Made by a program: the position numbers and the translations under genes. The notes under the pieces were generated by a model that saw nothing but the letters and a program-made list of their open reading frames with translations, was not told the origin of the DNA and made no database searches. From assembly GCA_016207825.1 (NCBI GenBank), contig JACQZI010000005.1:137772-201771 (forward strand): DNA of 64,000 nt, written 5' to 3'. Below are positions 25,156 to 63,135 of the stretch, in pieces; within the stretch, counting starts at the first letter, position 1, and each line of letters opens with the position of its first letter. Source of the stretch: Planctomycetota bacterium. Lineage in GTDB: Bacteria; Planctomycetota; MHYJ01; JACQXL01; JACQZI01.

Positions 25156-26178
25156 TTAACTTCGCTTTTTCGGAATGCCTGATATTTGTTTCATTATCAC
25201 ATCAACCGATTTATAAACATTCGTCTTGCCGCTTAAAATCTCATCAACAGATTTATCGATAAGCGTCCTTATTTTTTTATCATTGCCGATAAAGTCCTCG
25301 AACTCCTTGAAAACGAGCGACTTTAGTTTCTCTTTGACGATAAGTTTGCGCTTCAGGGATAACTCCCCGCTTTCTTTCAAGTGATGCCAGCGCTCTTCTA
25401 GAAAACCCAGGACCTCCGTGATGCCGACTGAATTGATTGCCTCGGTCTTGAATATGGGAATAGCGGTTTTGCATCCATCCGAGAGCGAAGTCTTATTCCG
25501 GCAATTCAAGGATATTTCGCCCCCCGAAGTTTCACTTGGGGGACTCCATTTCATTTCGCACGTGTTCCTAATGGCATCTATCAGGTTATCCGCACCGGGC
25601 CGGTCGGATTTATTCATCACGATTACATCGGCTATCTCCATGATACCCGCCTTCATCGCCTGGATGGCGTCGCCTGATTCGGGCGAAAGGACGAGGATGG
25701 TCGTATCTACATTCTTGAATATCTCTATCTCGGACTGGCCCACCCCGACCGTTTCTATGATGACGTATGATTTGCCGGAAGCATCGATGATATCCGCCGC
25801 GTCGGAGGTGCTCCGGCTGATGCCGCCTATCCAGCCGCGGGTAGCCATGCTCCTGATAAAAACGCCGGCATCAATCCCGATTTTCTGCATCCTGATACGG
25901 TCGCCCAGGATTGCCCCGCCGCTGAAGATACTCGAAGGGTCAATGGCGATAATGCCGACCGTTTTATTGCGCTTCCGCAAATTTATGGCCAGCTCGTCGA
26001 CCAGGGTGCTTTTCCCCACGCCGGGCGGCCCAGTAATCCCTATCCGGTGTGCTTTACCCAGGTGCGGGTAAAGTGCTGATAAAAGCTTGGTGGATTTATC
26101 GGCGTCGTTTTCAACCAGCGAAATAGCCTTGGCCAAGCTCGGCTTATCTCCGGCTAAAATCTTTTTCTTATCAATCAT
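25156..26178 (-). CDS. meaB: MeaB/ArgK-type G-protein chaperone of a B12-dependent acyl-CoA mutase
   Basis: A 340-residue P-loop GTPase that protects and reloads adenosylcobalamin in methylmalonyl- or isobutyryl-CoA mutases. Motifs: Walker A GPPGVGKS (50-57), AIDPSS (78-83), ETVGVGQSE (142-150) and NKSD (189-192). Between WSPP (211-214) and PIFKTEA about 25 residues are inserted (SETSGGEISLNCRNK and onward). The DNA there begins with a hairpin (25521-25542), so I read it as an in-frame repeat insertion. It starts 1 nt after the acyl-CoA dehydrogenase stop. The mutase it would serve is 30 kb away at 56.7-58.8 kb. Confidence 0.93.
   Translation of the reverse strand: MIDKKKILAGDKPSLAKAISLVENDADKSTKLLSALYPHLGKAHRIGITGPPGVGKSTLVDELAINLRKRNKTVGIIAIDPSSIFSGGAILGDRIRMQKIGIDAGVFIRSMATRGWIGGISRSTSDAADIIDASGKSYVIIETVGVGQSEIEIFKNVDTTILVLSPESGDAIQAMKAGIMEIADVIVMNKSDRPGADNLIDAIRNTCEMKWSPPSETSGGEISLNCRNKTSLSDGCKTAIPIFKTEAINSVGITEVLGFLEERWHHLKESGELSLKRKLIVKEKLKSLVFKEFEDFIGNDKKIRTLIDKSVDEILSGKTNVYKSVDVIMKQISGIPKKRS
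25521..25542. repeat. Hairpin element inside meaB
   Basis: Arms CCCCC-G-AAGT and ACTTGGGGG with loop TTC: nine pairs with one bulged G. It encodes part of the extra SPPSETSGG segment of MeaB. Confidence 0.6.
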
Positions 26179-26179
26179 T

Positions 26180-27349
26180 TTATTGGCGCGAAGAAACCCA
26201 GTTTTTGCCGAATAATTCCTTGTTTATGACTATTCGCTGGATTTCTGACGTGCCTTCGTAAATTTCCGTTACTTTGGCGTCGCGGAAAAACCTCTCCACC
26301 GCAAACTCCTTGGTATAACCCATCCCGCCGTGTATCTGGACGGTTTCCTTGGCCGCCTTATTGCATACGGTCGAGGCGAATAATTTCGCCATGCAAGCCT
26401 CTTTTATATGGGGCTGTTTTTTATCTTTGAGCAAAGCCGCCTGGTAAGTCGAAAGCCGGGCGGCATTTATTTCTGTGGCCATATCGGCTATCTTCCACTG
26501 TATTGCCTGGAATTCCGCCAGTGCCTTGCCGAATTGTTTCCGCTCCTGCGCGTATTTCATCGCGGCGTCAAGGCATGCCTGGGCAATACCAACAGACTGC
26601 GCGGCAATCCCGATTCGGCCGCTGTTTAAAAGTTCCATCGCGAGATTAAACCCCTTGTTTTCCTCGCCCAGCATGTTTTCCGCCGGCACGGCGCAATCTT
26701 CCAAGACAATCTCGCTCGCTTTGGCGCCTTTTACGCCCATTTTTTCCTCGATTGTGCCAAGCTTAAAACCCTTGAATGACGGCTCAACCAAAAACGCGCT
26801 GATGCCTTTGCCCCTCAAAGATTTATCCGGATTGGTCCGGGCAAAGACAATCGAAACACTGGCAATCGGGGCGCTCGTGATAAAAATCTTGTTGCCATTA
26901 AGGATATATTGATTGCCTTTCTTGTCCGCTTTGGTAATAAGCGAAGCGGCATCGCTTCCGGAAGCCGGCTCGGTCAAGGCGTATGCCCCGATAATTTCCC
27001 CACCGCCAAGCTTGGGCAGGTATTTCTTTTTCTGCTCGGTTGTCCCATATTTTACCAGTGCGTTGCAAACAAGAGAATTATGGACGGACATGGTTACCGA
27101 GGTTGAGGCACAGACGCGGCTGATTTCTTCCAGGACCAAGACAAGTGAAAACGTATCCAGCCCCGCCCCGCCGAATTCATCCGGCACGATAATCCCCCAA
27201 AAGCCCAGTTCCGCCAGCTTCTTGATTACTTCCTGCGGTATCCGCTCCTCGCGGTCTATTTGCTTGGCGTATTTGGAAAGGGTTTCTTGGGCAAATTCGC
27301 GTGCGGTATCCCTGATTAGCTTCTTCTCTTCATTCAATTCGAACAACAT
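26180..27349 (-). CDS. Acyl-CoA dehydrogenase (short/branched chain type)
   Basis: A 389-residue flavoprotein from the ATG at 27349. The upstream frame to 27391 overlaps the promoter (27360-27387) and is rejected. Family signatures are present: YALTEPASGSDAASL, a GRIGIAAQSVGIAQ helix, and near the C-terminus QIHGGMGYTKEF and IYEGTSEIQR, where the Glu of YEGT is the catalytic base of short-chain members. It would oxidise an acyl-CoA to the 2-enoyl-CoA, passing electrons to ETF. With MeaB immediately downstream (1 nt gap), a role beside a B12 acyl-CoA mutase is likely, for example on isobutyryl-, 2-methylbutyryl- or butyryl-CoA. Chain length cannot be settled by eye. Confidence 0.92.
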   Translation of the reverse strand: MLFELNEEKKLIRDTAREFAQETLSKYAKQIDREERIPQEVIKKLAELGFWGIIVPDEFGGAGLDTFSLVLVLEEISRVCASTSVTMSVHNSLVCNALVKYGTTEQKKKYLPKLGGGEIIGAYALTEPASGSDAASLITKADKKGNQYILNGNKIFITSAPIASVSIVFARTNPDKSLRGKGISAFLVEPSFKGFKLGTIEEKMGVKGAKASEIVLEDCAVPAENMLGEENKGFNLAMELLNSGRIGIAAQSVGIAQACLDAAMKYAQERKQFGKALAEFQAIQWKIADMATEINAARLSTYQAALLKDKKQPHIKEACMAKLFASTVCNKAAKETVQIHGGMGYTKEFAVERFFRDAKVTEIYEGTSEIQRIVINKELFGKNWVSSRQ

Positions 27350-27359
27350 AAGGTCGTTT

Positions 27360-27387
27360 ATTATAGGATTAATTAGCCCACTGTCAA
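27360..27387 (-). promoter_or_regulatory. Near-leaderless promoter for acyl-CoA dehydrogenase/meaB
   Basis: Minus strand: TTGACA (27387-27382), a 16-nt spacer and a perfect TATAAT (27365-27360). The ATG at 27349 is 10 nt past the -10 box, with no Shine-Dalgarno. It fixes the start of the dehydrogenase. Confidence 0.78.
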
Positions 27388-27427
27388 ACAAATCAATCCG
27401 CCATCGCTCCGGAACAACGACCGTTTA

Positions 27428-54710: not shown

Positions 54711-55292
54711 TTACTCAGAATGGGGTACAAAATAAACATCCGTCGGGCGGAATTTGGCGTTCCTCTTGAACTGCGCCTTGATTTTCATCCCTACCAGCTT
54801 CAAACTCGGCTTGGATGTATCCACGCCGACGAGGCGGCTCAAGAATAATGTATCTACCTTATCCCATTCGACTAGCACAAGGATAAAAGGCGTTTCCTTG
54901 AGGAACTCTTCGCTCCCGAAATGGCAGACTGTAAATGTATGGATGCGCCCCACTTCCGGCAGTTCGAACCATTCGGTCGGCGACCCGCATTCCATGCAAT
55001 GCGCCTTGGGCGTCCCATAAGTGTATTTGCACTTCGGGCACTTGGTGCCCAGAAGCTTGCCGTTTGCCAGTCCGGCAAAGAAGGGAGAATCCTGCCCGTA
55101 GCTGTGGATGTAGTCAATGTGATAAGGCTGCTTGATGATAATGGGCGACATGTGCTTCAGGTCCTTCATCTCCTTGGGGAATGGGACTTTAAAAAGAATC
55201 GTCCCGTCGTCTGTCTCAGGAAGCTTTATTCTTTCTACTGTTGCCTGCCCGACTGTATCTTTCAGGCGGGGCGTAATCGGTTGAATGTTCAT
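54711..55292 (-). CDS. DUF35 zinc-ribbon/OB-fold acyl-CoA-associated protein
   Basis: A 193-residue protein from the ATG at 55292: AAAGGAGG ends 7 nt before it, while ATGs at 55298 and 55343 are badly placed. The zinc ribbon is KCPKCKYTYGTPKAHCMECG, followed by an OB-fold (GRIHTFTVCHFGSEEF, FILVLVEWDKVD, LVGMKIKAQF). DUF35 proteins partner thiolase-like subunits (for example the Ltp2-ChsH2 aldolase and archaeal HMG-CoA pathway complexes). The thiolase-like gene ends 10 bp upstream of the annotated longer frame, on the same strand, matching that arrangement. Confidence 0.9.
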   Translation of the reverse strand: MNIQPITPRLKDTVGQATVERIKLPETDDGTILFKVPFPKEMKDLKHMSPIIIKQPYHIDYIHSYGQDSPFFAGLANGKLLGTKCPKCKYTYGTPKAHCMECGSPTEWFELPEVGRIHTFTVCHFGSEEFLKETPFILVLVEWDKVDTLFLSRLVGVDTSKPSLKLVGMKIKAQFKRNAKFRPTDVYFVPHSE

Positions 55293-55352
55293 TTTCATTC
55301 CTCCTTTATGATACACGAAAACACTGAATTTGTTACAAAGCACGAAATCATT

Positions 55353-56684
55353 TTACGCTTTCTCCAATATAGACACTGTGACATAAGTTCCGGTTCCCGC
55401 GTGGCTGTGGATGGCGCCGCGCTTGGCGTTCTTCACCTGGATGGTATCATCTCCCAGATGTTTCTTCATCGAGCCCTGCAATTGCCAAAGCGCGAAGACC
55501 GCCTGCATCAAGCCGGTCGCGCCGACCGGATGACCGCAGGCAATCAAACCGCCTGAAGGGTTGACCGGAATTTCGCCCTGGCGCGGGAGCTTGCCCAAAC
55601 CGTAATCTATATTCGGGAGGAAAGGCGCGCCGGATTCCACGAACTTGCCGCCTTCTCCGTATTTGCACAGCCCCATATCCTCGTAGGTCTGTATTTCCGA
55701 TGAGGTATAGGCATCATGCAGTTCCACGAAATCTATTTCCTTTAACGGGTCTTTAATCCCGGCATGCTCATAAGCGAGCTTGGAAGCGGTGCGTCCCGCG
55801 CGGAATGAATGTATGCCCGGATATTTAAGGTCTTTGTAATCGGAGGCTTTTTCATGAGCCAGGAGAATCACTTTCTTGTGGGGACGGTCGGACATACGCA
55901 TGGCATCCGTGCCGCGGCCGATGCCGGTGACCTTGACGAGGTTCTTCGGTTCCTTGCCGGTGGCTTTCTTGATTTTCTTTATGCCGTCTTCGCTGGCGAG
56001 AATGCCGCATGCCGCGCCGTCGCTCATCACGCAGATATCAAGTAAGGTCAGCGGCCAGGCGACCATATCCGAATTACGCACATCCTTGACGGTCAGGCGT
56101 TTCCTTTTCTGGGCGTATTTATTATGGAAGGCGTTGATATGGTTCTTGACGGAGACCTTTGCCAGCTGTTCCACGGTCGTGCCGAATTCCTGCATGTGCC
56201 GGACGACCATCATGGCGTAATAGCCGGAATAAAATCCGCCCACCGGATAATCAAAGCTGACATCCGAGGCGAGCGCGATGAATTCATTCCCTTTCCAGGT
56301 ATTGACGTGGGACATGGTTTCGAATCCGTAAGCGACGCAGGTATCCATGACGCCGGATGCGATATTTTTATAGGCCTCCTGGAAACAGACTCCGCCGGTC
56401 GCGCCGCCTGCCTCAACTCGGTGGCTGGGCAGGGGGCAAAGGCCAAGGTAATCCTGAACCATAATGCCTGACATCAACTGGCGCGCGAAGTGGTCGGAAA
56501 AATAAGAGGCAACGCTTCCGTCAAACACTTCCGGCGCTTGTTTGTTTTCAAGCCCGATATCCTTCAGGGCATAGTCATAGGCTTCTTTCACCATGGGTTG
56601 GAATGTCACGTCAGGGCGGGCCTTGGCAAATTTGCTTATGCCGCCTGAAACAAAGTAGACATCCCTTGTCTTTTTAAACGCCAT
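55353..56684 (-). CDS. Thiolase-fold protein lacking the nucleophilic cysteine
   Basis: A 443-residue thiolase-superfamily protein in the SCP2/DitF-like class, with AAAGGAGG 6 nt before the ATG. C-terminal motifs GHPVGATG and IHSHAGTGTYV are present. At the usual nucleophile, the family's xACAS(G/T)G is replaced by VEAGGATGG, with Gly94 where the Cys should be; C100 lies six residues later. The second catalytic Cys site, in the IHSHAGTG segment, is also not a Cys. It is therefore unlikely to run the Claisen cleavage of ordinary thiolases and may instead be an aldolase- or scaffold-type subunit acting with the DUF35 protein next door. It follows the small mutase subunit on the same strand. Confidence 0.88.
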   Translation of the reverse strand: MAFKKTRDVYFVSGGISKFAKARPDVTFQPMVKEAYDYALKDIGLENKQAPEVFDGSVASYFSDHFARQLMSGIMVQDYLGLCPLPSHRVEAGGATGGVCFQEAYKNIASGVMDTCVAYGFETMSHVNTWKGNEFIALASDVSFDYPVGGFYSGYYAMMVVRHMQEFGTTVEQLAKVSVKNHINAFHNKYAQKRKRLTVKDVRNSDMVAWPLTLLDICVMSDGAACGILASEDGIKKIKKATGKEPKNLVKVTGIGRGTDAMRMSDRPHKKVILLAHEKASDYKDLKYPGIHSFRAGRTASKLAYEHAGIKDPLKEIDFVELHDAYTSSEIQTYEDMGLCKYGEGGKFVESGAPFLPNIDYGLGKLPRQGEIPVNPSGGLIACGHPVGATGLMQAVFALWQLQGSMKKHLGDDTIQVKNAKRGAIHSHAGTGTYVTVSILEKA

Positions 56685-56741: not shown

Positions 56742-57155
56742 TTATTTTTTACTTTTCTTGCGTTTGGTAACTTCAGTTTTTATGTAATCGATTATTTCCG
56801 TGGTCGGCGCGCCCGGGGTAAAGAGGCATCCGATGCCGAGATTTTTCAGCTTGGGCATATCGTCTTCCGGGATTATTCCGCCGCCGGTCAGCAATACGTT
56901 TTTCATACCTTTTGATTTGAGCATTTTCAGGACTGCCGGGAAAATGGTCATATGGGCGCCGGAAAGAATGGATAAACCGACCACATCGACATCCTCTTCC
57001 AGCGCGGCGTTGACAATCATTTCCGGCGTCTGGTGGAGTCCGGTGTAAATCACCTCCATCCCGGCATCGCGCAGGGCGCAGGCAATCACCTTGGCGCCGC
57101 GGTCATGTCCGTCCAGTCCGGGCTTGGCGACGAGAACTCTGATTTTATCTGTCAT
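56742..57155 (-). CDS. B12-binding small subunit of an acyl-CoA mutase
   Basis: A 137-residue cobalamin-binding domain: [18 protein letters not shown] carries DxHxxG with His17, the lower axial ligand of adenosylcobalamin; [11 protein letters not shown] and [11 protein letters not shown] are the other conserved turns. It completes the radical mutase with the large subunit, whose gene ends 20 nt upstream. Separate small subunits of this size are typical of isobutyryl-CoA mutases (IcmB) and of archaeal methylmalonyl-CoA mutases. Confidence 0.93.
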
Positions 57156-57174: not shown

Positions 57175-58782
57175 CTACCAGAAAATCGGCGGTTCTTTGT
57201 ATTCGCCGAAGACCTTCTTTAATGTATTGATAATTTCGCCCAGGGTTGTATAGCACTTGGCCGCTTCGAGAATTTTGGGCATCAGGTTATCCGTGCCGCG
57301 CGCGGCAGCTTTAATTGCTTCCAGGCATTTCTTTACTTTCGCGTTATCGCGGCGCCGGCGCAGTTTCTTTAAGCCCTGGTTCTGGTCGTGTTCCACCTTG
57401 GTGGAAATCTTAAGAAGCTCGATATCGGGCGGCGTATCCTCGACGAATTCGTTTATGCCGATGATAATACGCTTTTTCGCTTCGATTTCTTTCTGGTATT
57501 GGTAAGCGGAGCTGGCGATTTCCCGCTGGAAGAAACCCTGCTCGATTGCCGGAATCACCCCGCCGAAGGAATCTATCTTCTTAAAATATTCCTCGGCCGC
57601 CGCTTCCATCTTATTGGTAAGCGCTTCGACATAATACGAGCCGCCCAGGGGGTCGATTGTATTGGTGACGCCCGATTCATAGGCGATAATCTGCTGGGTG
57701 CGCAGGGCAATCCGGACCGCGTGTTCGGTCGGGAGAGCCAGCGTTTCATCCATGGAGTTTGTATGCAGGCTCTGTGTCCCGCCTAAAACGGCCGAGAGTC
57801 CCTGGTAAGCCGTGCGGACGATGTTGTTTTCCGGCTGTTGCGCAGTCAGCGTGCATCCGGCGGTCTGGGTATGGAAACGCATGAGGTAAGAACGCTGGTC
57901 TTTGGCCTTGTATTTATCGCGCATCCGTTTGGACCAGATACGGCGCGCCGCGCGGTATTTGGCGATTTCCTCGAAGAAATCCAGGTGTGAATTAAAGAAG
58001 AACGACAGGCGCGGGGCGAATTTATCCACATCCATCCCGGCGGCGATGCCTGCTTCCACATAGGCGAATCCATCGGCTAATGTAAACGCCAACTCTTGCA
58101 CGGCGGTCGAGCCGGCTTCGCGTATGTGATAACCGCTGATGGAAATCGTATTCCATTTCGGAACGTGGTCCGCGCAGAAAGCAAGTATATCCGTGATAAT
58201 GCGCATCGAAGGCTTGGGCGGGAAAATCCAGGATTTCTGCGCGATGTATTCTTTTAGGATATCATTTTGTATCGTACCCCTGAGCTGCGTTGAAGGCACG
58301 CCCTGCTTTTCTCCTACCGCGATATAAAAAGCCAGCAAGACCGCGGAAGGCCCGTTTATGGTCATCGAGGTGGAAACCTTGTCAAGCGGGATGCCGCTAA
58401 AAAGCGTTTCCATGTTTTCAAGCGAAGCGATTGCCACGCCGCAACGGCCGACTTCGCCTTTTGCCATTGTGTCGTCCGAATCGCGCCCGTAAAGCGTGGG
58501 AAAATCAAAGGCGACCGATAAACCGGTCTGTCCGTGCGCAAGCAGGAATTTATAGCGCTTATTGGTGTCCTTGGCGGTGCCGAACCCGGAAAACTGGCGC
58601 ATGGTCCAGAGCTGGCCGCGGTACATATCCGGATAGACTCCGCGTGTATAAGGGAATTTGCCGGGCGCACCCAAATCGCGCTGGTAATCAAAGCCGGGGA
58701 TATCAGCAGAAGTGTAAACGACTTTTTGGGGCGTAGGCGTTGATTTGGTTTCCGGCTTTGCTATGACAGTTTTATCATTCAT
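57175..58782 (-). CDS. B12-dependent acyl-CoA mutase large subunit, isobutyryl-CoA-mutase-like active site
   Basis: A 535-residue TIM-barrel radical mutase from the ATG at 58782. The promoter at 58793-58821 lies inside the longer frame (to 58821), so that start is rejected. Family motifs: [81 protein letters not shown] and [13 protein letters not shown]. Methylmalonyl-CoA mutase uses Tyr89 and Arg207 around the substrate. The aligned residues here are Phe (in TMRQF) and Gln (in YIAQK), as in isobutyryl-CoA mutase. With a separate B12 subunit the set fits IcmA/IcmB-like, rather than MutA/MutB. The MeaB at 25 kb is its likely chaperone. Confidence 0.92.
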
Positions 58783-59975: not shown

Positions 59976-60004
59976 TTGACAAATTCGATATAATAATGTA
60001 TATT
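59976..60004 (+). promoter_or_regulatory. Near-leaderless promoter of the gene at 60015
   Basis: TTGACA (59976-59981), a 17-nt spacer and TATATT (59999-60004). The ATG at 60015 is 10 nt past the -10 box, with no Shine-Dalgarno. Confidence 0.68.
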
Positions 60005-60014
60005 GGCCCGCAAT

Positions 60015-60908
60015 ATGGGCATAAAGAAAATATTGCTCTGGGTGGGAATTACCGGATCAATAGGATTGCTTTTCGGCATCTGGTTCAATATCCTTTATAC
60101 CGGAGGCCAAAACAATAATACTTCGGAAACTAATCCTAAAAACGATTCGGTTAATGTAAACAACAATTCTAACGAAACAAACTCAGCCGCGACAAATCGT
60201 TACCCTGGCTCTACTAAAGAATCCAGGCAAAACAAGCCCAAAAACAATACCACCCTGGCCGCTAAGGGAAAACCGGCTGTATCTCCTAATCCGGCCGCGG
60301 CCAACATTCAGAACGCGGAAAGAGATTTCTATTCGCCTAAAAACCTGGACCGTTTAATCGGCAATACCCCGTTAAGCACGGCACTGTCAATCGCCCATGG
60401 TTTGCCGGACGAAACCATCCAGGAGATTTTAAATAAAATCCCCGAAGATTACCTGAAAGAAAAACTGGCAACCGCCGAACTGGGATTTTCCAACGAAGAG
60501 TTAAAAGACAATAACCCCCTTGAATTAATCAACTCGCTTCTTAAAGTTTCCGAGACCGGAGCCGTTACAGATACGGCTGAAGTCTTTTTCACCTCCCTCG
60601 TCAACCCAAACGATAACAGCCCGGGTTACGCGACCCCATATTTCTACGAAAACACCAAAAAGATTTTTGCCTGTTTCAAGAACGAAGGAACCATGGCTGA
60701 TTTTAAGGAGGTGGTCTCCTTATGGAAAAACACCTCAACCGGCAAGGTGACCTATTGGGGGAAACAAATGATTAATCCGTGGTCAAAATGGAATTACGTC
60801 TGGCTGGAATATAAATCCAACTGGCCTAAGGGTTCTTACATAGTTTCCTTTTATAAAAACGCCAGCAGTTCAAAATGCCTGGCGCAGGGAAGGTTTGAGG
60901 TAAAATAA
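60015..60908 (+). CDS. Membrane-anchored protein with Asn/Ser-rich linker, function unknown
   Basis: 297 residues from the ATG at 60015; the TTG at 60003 overlaps the -10 box. One N-terminal helix (KKILLWVGITGSIGLLFGIWFNIL) is followed by a low-complexity segment (NNNTSETNPKNDSVNVNNN), then a helical part (LIGNTPLSTALSIAHGLPDET, IPEDYLKEKLATAELGFS) and a beta-rich C-terminal domain (WSKWNYVWLEYKSNWPKG, SYIVSFYKNASSSKCLAQGRF). It is probably periplasmic. No family recognised. Confidence 0.75.
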   Translation: MGIKKILLWVGITGSIGLLFGIWFNILYTGGQNNNTSETNPKNDSVNVNNNSNETNSAATNRYPGSTKESRQNKPKNNTTLAAKGKPAVSPNPAAANIQNAERDFYSPKNLDRLIGNTPLSTALSIAHGLPDETIQEILNKIPEDYLKEKLATAELGFSNEELKDNNPLELINSLLKVSETGAVTDTAEVFFTSLVNPNDNSPGYATPYFYENTKKIFACFKNEGTMADFKEVVSLWKNTSTGKVTYWGKQMINPWSKWNYVWLEYKSNWPKGSYIVSFYKNASSSKCLAQGRFEVK

Positions 60909-61144: not shown

Positions 61145-61191
61145 TCATCCCGACATATTTCGGGATGGCTAAAAAGTGGAGGATAAAAAAG

Positions 61192-63135
61192 ATGGTAAAA
61201 ACCAAATACCTGATAATCATGTCAATCCTGGTAAGCGCTGTGCTGGTCGGCATAACGCTTTCCTTCCCGGCAACCGCCGCAACCGTAACACCGGATACTT
61301 ACAAAGTTACGCTGTATAAAACAGAGCTTTCGACCAACGGGACCACGTGGGTAGAAGTATTTAACAGCGTAGCAGGCACACAAATAGACTTCCAGAACGC
61401 GGCGCAGATAGGAAGCGCTTTCGGGCAGGGCTCGATGCCGGAGGGCACCTATAATGCGGCAAGATTCACCATTAAAAACGCGATTGAATATTCCTATGCG
61501 GCATCCGGCGTCGGCGCAACTACTTTCAGCCCATACCCGGGAAACGCAACCGACCAGGTGCCTGTTTATTTCTCCGTCAGCGGCACTTTCACCTGGAGCA
61601 ACGACGGTTCAACGCTCCTCAAGGCTTTCCCGATGCCTGACCCCATCAGGGTCGTGGCTAACGGGACATCTAAGGTAATCATGAACTTTGGCGTAACGAA
61701 TTCCCTGGTAATAGTCGGAGCGACTTTATATCTTGCTCCGCCCACTATGAGCGTAAGCAATATCGTAATCCCGCCCACCCCGCCGGCTAACCCCAATCTC
61801 TTTGCGGGAGGCGAATATTATTTCGTCCGTCAGAACCTTGCCATACCAGCGCTAAATTCGATTACCCCGACCTGGATGGAGCTTCAATCCGGCTGGGGAA
61901 TAATTTCCATGAGCGCACCATCGGCCGCCGGAGTGGGAACTTTTGAGATTCTTCCGGCTAATAACAGCGAACACCGCCGAAGTATTTATCTTTCCGACGC
62001 AATTTCGCACACTAGTATGGGCGGACAGATTGAACTGGTGGGAATCCCCATGTCCGGAACATACTACGCGGATGCCAGCGGTTTCATCAATATGCTGATG
62101 CCCCAAACAAACGGCATTATCCGGGGCGGGCTCAGAAATGATGGAAAGGTATTTATCGCCATTGAAATAGCTTCTCCTTCCAGCCAGACACAAGATACTT
62201 ATGTTGGTTATCACATGATTTATGCCATACTGAAAGAAACTAATACCAACGGCCCTAACCTTATCGGCGACTTTGCGTTTAATGGTTACGGAGCCGGGGT
62301 AATCACGGCTTACAATACCGCCGGCGGCGCGACGAATTATCAGAACTTTAGGTTAGAAACCGATGTCGGCATAGGCTGGCTGCAGGCCACAGCCGGGGCG
62401 GTTACCGATACCGAAACCAATAACCGGATTGAAATTCAACGGCCATTGAGCCCAACGGAACAAACCGTTACGGTACCGACCATTGGATATTACACCGACA
62501 CCAATGCGGCGCCTCTTGCGGTAGATGCAAACTGCCGATTCACGGTCGATAAGACCTGGGGCGCTCTATTAAACGACCGTTCCATCGGCATCTACGCCGG
62601 TGATACGACCAGCCCCTCAGATACATGGTCTGGGTCAGGAGTTGAATTCTGGCAAAATTATCTTAATTTCGGAGTCGCCTTGCCGATTTCTCCCGCAGGA
62701 ACGTTTAACGTTGCCAGCGTATCCGGCACATATACATTTGTATTTAGGCGTGATAAATGGGATAACTCTATGGGAACCGAACTGCCCGATAACGAGGTTA
62801 CGTTGGGCCGAATAACGCTGGATGGCGTGGGCAATGCCACGGGACGAATGACAGTCTGCCGGCGCGGCGCGACAGAAATCCAAACCTTTGATAATATTAC
62901 TTATACGGTAGTTACCACGCAAATCGGGGCGCTTAGTGCCACCGCTGTTGCTGGAGTTGATTACCGTTCCGCGGATGTCATCAGCCTCTACGATAATGAC
63001 AAGCAGGAAGAAATGGTCCGGATGCTGATTGGTGCCGACGGCAAGACGTTGTCGCCTTATGTACCGGCTGAAACCGTACCATTTAATAACACTCCCTCCG
63101 ACAGACGCGGTTTGGGGCTGGCCATCAAGCAGTAA
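61192..63135 (+). CDS. Secreted beta-rich protein (647 aa), DUF4382-like N-terminal domain
   Basis: I take the ATG at 61192, which has GGAGG 9 nt upstream; the frame to 61165 is longer by nine residues. It carries a signal peptide (MVKTKYLIIMSILVSAVLVG, cleavage near ATAA). Residues about 35-210 resemble a DUF4382-type beta-sandwich (TPDTYKVTLYKTELSTNGTT, MPEGTYNAARFTIKNA). The rest is beta-rich with internal similarities (AGGEYYFVRQ, GIISMSAPSAAGVGTFEI, GIGWLQATAGAVTDTE). No enzymatic motif. With the lipoprotein it forms a two-gene unit ending in a terminator at 63161. Confidence 0.75.
   Translation: MVKTKYLIIMSILVSAVLVGITLSFPATAATVTPDTYKVTLYKTELSTNGTTWVEVFNSVAGTQIDFQNAAQIGSAFGQGSMPEGTYNAARFTIKNAIEYSYAASGVGATTFSPYPGNATDQVPVYFSVSGTFTWSNDGSTLLKAFPMPDPIRVVANGTSKVIMNFGVTNSLVIVGATLYLAPPTMSVSNIVIPPTPPANPNLFAGGEYYFVRQNLAIPALNSITPTWMELQSGWGIISMSAPSAAGVGTFEILPANNSEHRRSIYLSDAISHTSMGGQIELVGIPMSGTYYADASGFINMLMPQTNGIIRGGLRNDGKVFIAIEIASPSSQTQDTYVGYHMIYAILKETNTNGPNLIGDFAFNGYGAGVITAYNTAGGATNYQNFRLETDVGIGWLQATAGAVTDTETNNRIEIQRPLSPTEQTVTVPTIGYYTDTNAAPLAVDANCRFTVDKTWGALLNDRSIGIYAGDTTSPSDTWSGSGVEFWQNYLNFGVALPISPAGTFNVASVSGTYTFVFRRDKWDNSMGTELPDNEVTLGRITLDGVGNATGRMTVCRRGATEIQTFDNITYTVVTTQIGALSATAVAGVDYRSADVISLYDNDKQEEMVRMLIGADGKTLSPYVPAETVPFNNTPSDRRGLGLAIKQ

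Follow-up and report, generated by a model that had tools for sequence, protein, structure and literature searches.

A probable two-subunit isobutyryl-CoA mutase, named methylmalonyl-CoA mutase by family models, in a planctomycete genome

Arg207 of methylmalonyl-CoA mutase (MCM) binds the carboxylate of the substrate. Two specificity sites, tyrosine and arginine in MCM, have been described as marking the mutase subfamilies (summarized in PMC7238569, citing Jost et al. 2015). Cases in which the fused isobutyryl-CoA mutase was misannotated as methylmalonyl-CoA mutase are on record (mentioned in PMC7764203, citing Cracan 2010), and isomerization of isobutyrate to butyrate in a syntroph has been linked to a cluster in which the two genes of an isobutyryl-CoA mutase are accompanied by MeaB and an adenosyltransferase (PMC5017805). 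Crystal structures of the fused enzyme, IcmF, exist with isobutyryl-, n-butyryl-, isovaleryl-, and pivalyl-CoA, according to their PDB titles. By title and abstract, a literature search on isobutyryl-CoA mutase in Planctomycetota returned nothing on this enzyme. The kind of enzyme is already known; the planctomycete protein described here, whose function is predicted from its sequence, is almost certainly a further member that current family models misname.

The mutase locus and its annotation

The host is a planctomycete with a 2.9-Mb genome (G000; 97.6% complete), and the window, meaning the whole stretch of 64,000 nucleotides that was analyzed, is the end of one of its contigs (C5). The features relevant here, with the evidence for each in parentheses, are as follows.

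57175-58782, minus strand: large (catalytic) subunit of an adenosylcobalamin-dependent mutase, predicted isobutyryl-CoA mutase type (residues, models, alignment, tree)
56742-57155, minus strand: small subunit for cobalamin binding, in which the sequence DGHDRG (DxHxxG pattern) contains the histidine ligand of the cobalt (models, search)
55353-56684, minus strand: SCP-x/archaeal-type thiolase in the mutase operon, probably an acetoacetyl-CoA thiolase subunit (models, 6esq)
54711-55343, minus strand: DUF35/ChsH2-type protein with zinc ribbon and OB fold, thiolase partner (models, DUF35 chain of 6esq)
25156-26178, minus strand: MeaB-type GTPase chaperone for adenosylcobalamin loading (models, orthology)
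26180-27391, minus strand: short-chain acyl-CoA dehydrogenase (models, orthology)

The mutase reading frame encodes 535 amino acids from an ATG start; the nearest named relative, the "Candidatus Brocadiia" MAG DeMMO3_52 (L033), which belongs to the same genus, has an ortholog of 94% identity with the same length and an identical start. Large subunit, small subunit, thiolase, and DUF35 protein form a minus-strand run of four genes whose order is conserved in L033; the small subunit begins 19 bases 3' of the large subunit, and the true start of the DUF35 protein is probably an internal ATG. The meaB gene is the only MeaB match over the cut-off in the genome, and the acyl-CoA dehydrogenase gene lies 1 base upstream from it. 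An Rfam scan of the window gave no match, and so no known cobalamin riboswitch. Farther along, 60003-60908 and 61165-63135 encode proteins of 301 and 656 amino acids without a Pfam match, in a position that is also conserved in L033. As an earlier note on this DNA had anticipated, NCBIfam and Pfam label the 57175-58782 protein methylmalonyl-CoA mutase and nothing else; none of the matching NCBIfam models is specific for the two-subunit isobutyryl-CoA mutase.

Active-site residues and phylogeny

Residue positions were read from an alignment with solved mutases and are given in MCM numbering (89, 207, and 244) and, for position 117, in the numbering of 2-hydroxyisobutyryl-CoA mutase (HCM). The isobutyryl-CoA mutase reference, here and in the tree, was the fused IcmF (4xc6) and not Streptomyces IcmA; a plasmid search with an approximate IcmA query gave no match above 60%. 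Phe64, Gln182, and His219 of the planctomycete protein occupy the columns of MCM Tyr89, Arg207, and His244, with spacings of 118 and 37 residues, just as the earlier note had counted them up to the histidine of the SGYH motif. Its statement that isobutyryl-CoA mutase has phenylalanine and glutamine at the first two positions is borne out by F618 and Q762 of IcmF (4xc6 chain). The column of HCM Asp117, a third site on which the earlier note is silent, holds Ala91; MCM and IcmF likewise have alanine there.

Because the Phe/Gln pair is near-invariant in 40 close Gln-type relatives (glutamine at 207 in 40/40; phenylalanine at 89 in 38, with one valine and one gap), it is not a matter of chance or an assembly artifact. 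All 23 Tyr/Arg-type mutases carry the tyrosine, and all 23 the arginine; columns 89 and 207 separate the Gln type (n = 40) from the Arg type (n = 23) most sharply of the whole alignment. Residue 98 is tyrosine in this genus and in IcmF, versus methionine in 38/38 other Phe/Gln relatives. An AlphaFold model of the mutase, built from a 17-row alignment, reached a mean pLDDT of 72, with residues 36-65, Phe64 among them, below 50; Foldseek with this model ranked HCM and MCM at the top. Two observations concern the wider distribution of these residues. A class relative (L022, genome G010) keeps Gln207 and has valine for phenylalanine at 89, possibly with another substrate range, and Phe/Gln mutases annotated as methylmalonyl-CoA mutase family are encoded on plasmids of Halostagnicola larsenii (L065) and Deinococcus (L060).

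The mutase tree (69 rows, 505 columns) was built after removal of the N terminus and all three diagnostic columns. A branch with SH-aLRT support of 94 separated all 44 Gln207 rows, comprising the Phe, Val, and Ile/Asp types, from the Tyr/Arg mutases, and the query lay deep within the Phe/Ala/Gln set beside its order and class relatives. The firm placement within the methylmalonyl-CoA mutases that would have spoken against the earlier note's proposal is thus not what this tree gives. IcmF and the Xanthobacter Leu/Leu/Asn protein sit on long branches, where the placement of both is unsure.

Gene neighborhoods, proposed function, and alternative substrates

Neighboring genes of the relatives were identified with NCBIfam. 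The order seen in Planctomycetota runs from thiolase (acetyl-CoA acetyltransferase; THL) through 3-hydroxybutyryl-CoA dehydrogenase (HBDH), acyl-CoA dehydrogenase (ACAD), MeaB, and mutase to the B12 subunit. Among the relatives it is kept in full at L077, L080, and L085 and without the B12 subunit at L034 and L070; variant orders occur at L035, L036, L041, L074, L084, and L086. Latescibacteria and Krumholzibacteria show MeaB, mutase, B12 subunit, THL, HBDH. This conserved set is the one required to take isobutyryl-CoA through butyryl-CoA to two acetyl-CoA. A beta-oxidation gene is near the mutase at 14/30 Phe/Gln loci versus 1/16 Tyr/Arg loci (Fisher p 0.007), and an epimerase at 0/29 versus 6/16 (Fisher p 0.001), the loci in both comparisons being related and not independent. 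Both arrangements are present on one contig at L036, where the Phe/Gln mutase is accompanied by thiolase and dehydrogenase and the Tyr/Arg mutase by epimerase and carboxylase. At L043 and L053 a carboxylase lies 3-5 kb downstream from the mutase (1-3 kb past the B12 subunit), separated by unrelated genes, and we treat it as uninformative.

In G000 the orthologs of this cluster are dispersed: two of the three sites lie within the window, and the orthologs of the thiolase and 3-hydroxybutyryl-CoA dehydrogenase are on contig C7. Identities to the single cluster of the same-order genome G004 are 71% for ACAD, 52% for MeaB, 69% for HBDH, and 74% for thiolase, and the genome also encodes crotonases and one ETF pair. 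Since the mutase operon here carries the thiolase/DUF35 pair and not the usual ACAD and HBDH genes, local context alone gives weaker support. The closest solved relative of the thiolase is 6esq, the archaeal acetoacetyl-CoA thiolase complex, and that of the DUF35 protein is the DUF35 chain of the same complex, a likeness that fits acetoacetyl-CoA cleavage, the final step of the proposed route; the thiolase matches the benzoylsuccinyl-CoA thiolase BbsB less well. The pair resembles an archaeal complex and lies in a bacterial catabolic operon. Five 2-oxoacid:ferredoxin oxidoreductases are encoded in G000, and family models single out none of them for 2-oxoisovalerate. Elsewhere in the genome (L110, 3152-8257; contig C10, about 48-53 kb), a thiolase, a fused 3-hydroxyacyl-CoA dehydrogenase/crotonase (680 amino acids), and a HadB/benzoyl-CoA-reductase-like dehydratase subunit adjoin one another.

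Residues, phylogeny, gene order, and gene presence are directly established for the mutase; from them we infer substrate and direction, and 57175-58782 very probably encodes a two-subunit isobutyryl-CoA mutase acting together with butyryl-CoA beta-oxidation. The icmA product (57175-58782) and the 56742-57155 protein would form an adenosylcobalamin-dependent isobutyryl-CoA mutase (EC 5.4.99.13), with cofactor loading aided by MeaB. By analogy with the family, homolysis would yield an adenosyl radical that takes a hydrogen from the substrate methyl group, and the CoA-carbonyl group would shift to the adjacent carbon, converting isobutyryl-CoA reversibly to butyryl-CoA. Gln182 and Phe64, in place of the arginine and tyrosine by which MCM holds the second carboxylate of its substrate, would accommodate the neutral C4 acyl chain. 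From there, the acyl-CoA dehydrogenase at 26180-27391, together with a crotonase, 3-hydroxybutyryl-CoA dehydrogenase, and one or more thiolases, could take butyryl-CoA to two acetyl-CoA. The earlier note had favored isobutyryl-/butyryl-CoA or a related neutral acyl-CoA as substrate; the IcmF residues, the tree, the operons of relatives, and the existence of a Tyr/Arg paralog all agree with that prediction.

Two residues do not determine the substrate among the neutral acyl-CoAs. The enzyme might act on isovaleryl- or pivalyl-CoA or interconvert C5 acyl-CoAs, for example 2-methylbutyryl- and valeryl-CoA; the thiolase/DUF35 pair would then cleave a 3-ketoacyl-CoA that is branched or longer. The isovaleryl- and pivalyl-CoA structures of IcmF, which has the same two residues, are compatible with such a role, as are the SCP-x type of the operon thiolase, which is not the usual acetoacetyl-CoA type, and the genus-specific Tyr98. 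We nevertheless consider it unlikely: the clusters of relatives carry 3-hydroxybutyryl-CoA dehydrogenase and acetyl-CoA acetyltransferase, and the best solved relatives of the thiolase and DUF35 protein belong, as noted, to an acetoacetyl-CoA thiolase complex. Moreover, the Xanthobacter mutase Xaut_5043, which we take to be the pivalyl-CoA mutase, has Leu/Leu/Asn at the three sites. That the protein is, as the NCBIfam and Pfam names would have it, a methylmalonyl-CoA mutase whose residues are simply unusual is very improbable, given that Arg207 is found in 0/40 of the Gln-type group, that the tree splits the two groups, and that G000 already has a Tyr/Arg mutase (L068; contig C10, 159968-161515) near a methylmalonyl-CoA epimerase. 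It thus appears that within one cell each specificity has a protein of its own. Activity on 2-hydroxyisobutyryl-CoA is scarcely credible because Asp117 is missing: although HCM (4r3u) comes closest among solved proteins in both sequence and structure (558 bits, about 50% identity) and shares Gln207, its Ile90 and Asp117 are replaced by phenylalanine and alanine, the HCM rows of the tree group apart from the query in a clade with support of 100, and the acyl-CoA ligase and adenosyltransferase of HCM operons are absent here.

The isobutyryl-CoA mutase proposed here may not have its cobalamin subunit to itself. A TIGR00640 search and a small-subunit query found a single MCM/ICM-type B12 small subunit in G000, at 56742-57155, and neither of the two large subunits (535 and 538 amino acids) has a B12 domain. 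G002-G005 and G007 each have one B12 small subunit above the cut-off and two large-subunit matches (three in G002, one a fragment). Either one small cobalamin-binding subunit serves both the Phe/Gln and the Tyr/Arg large subunits of the same cell, or a second was overlooked in the draft genomes; the single-subunit pattern in several same-order genomes favors sharing, to which we incline slightly. If the subunit is shared, valine/isobutyrate metabolism would be coupled to propionate metabolism through the supply of B12 and through competition of the two large subunits, and the system would offer a simple, testable example of radical B12 enzymes that use a common subunit.

Implications and comparison with described systems

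Misnaming of this branch would attribute a propionate step to Planctomycetota, Zixibacteria, Calditrichota, and Latescibacteria and would conceal a possible branched-chain (valine/isobutyrate) route into butyryl-CoA beta-oxidation, which would convert branched four-carbon acids to straight ones for the ordinary enzymes of fatty-acid breakdown. A two-residue check combined with gene order can separate isobutyryl-CoA from methylmalonyl-CoA mutases.

With MCM (human 2xij, Propionibacterium 1req, and the contig C10 paralog in G000), the planctomycete protein shares the fold, most conserved residues of the catalytic domain, and the SGYH histidine, but MCM has Tyr89/Arg207 where the query has Phe/Gln, and its context is epimerase and propionyl-CoA carboxylase. 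HCM (Aquincola 4r3u, Methylibium PM1, and Xaut_5021) has in common with it the two-subunit build, Gln207, and about 50% identity, and differs in having Ile90 and Asp117, versus phenylalanine and alanine, and another operon. Cupriavidus IcmF (4xc6) has the same Phe/Ala/Gln/His set (Phe618/Ala/Gln762/His800, chain numbering) and Tyr98 as well, whereas its B12 domain, GTPase, and mutase are fused in one chain and identity to the query is only about 37%. By their descriptions, Streptomyces IcmA/IcmB and Slip_0757-0760 of Syntrophothermus lipocalidus likewise consist of two subunits with MeaB nearby or in the genome, and the predicted interconversion of isobutyryl- and butyryl-CoA is common to them and the present locus. 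Unlike those systems, the one described here belongs to a planctomycete, has its genes in three places, and carries a thiolase/DUF35 pair in the mutase operon.
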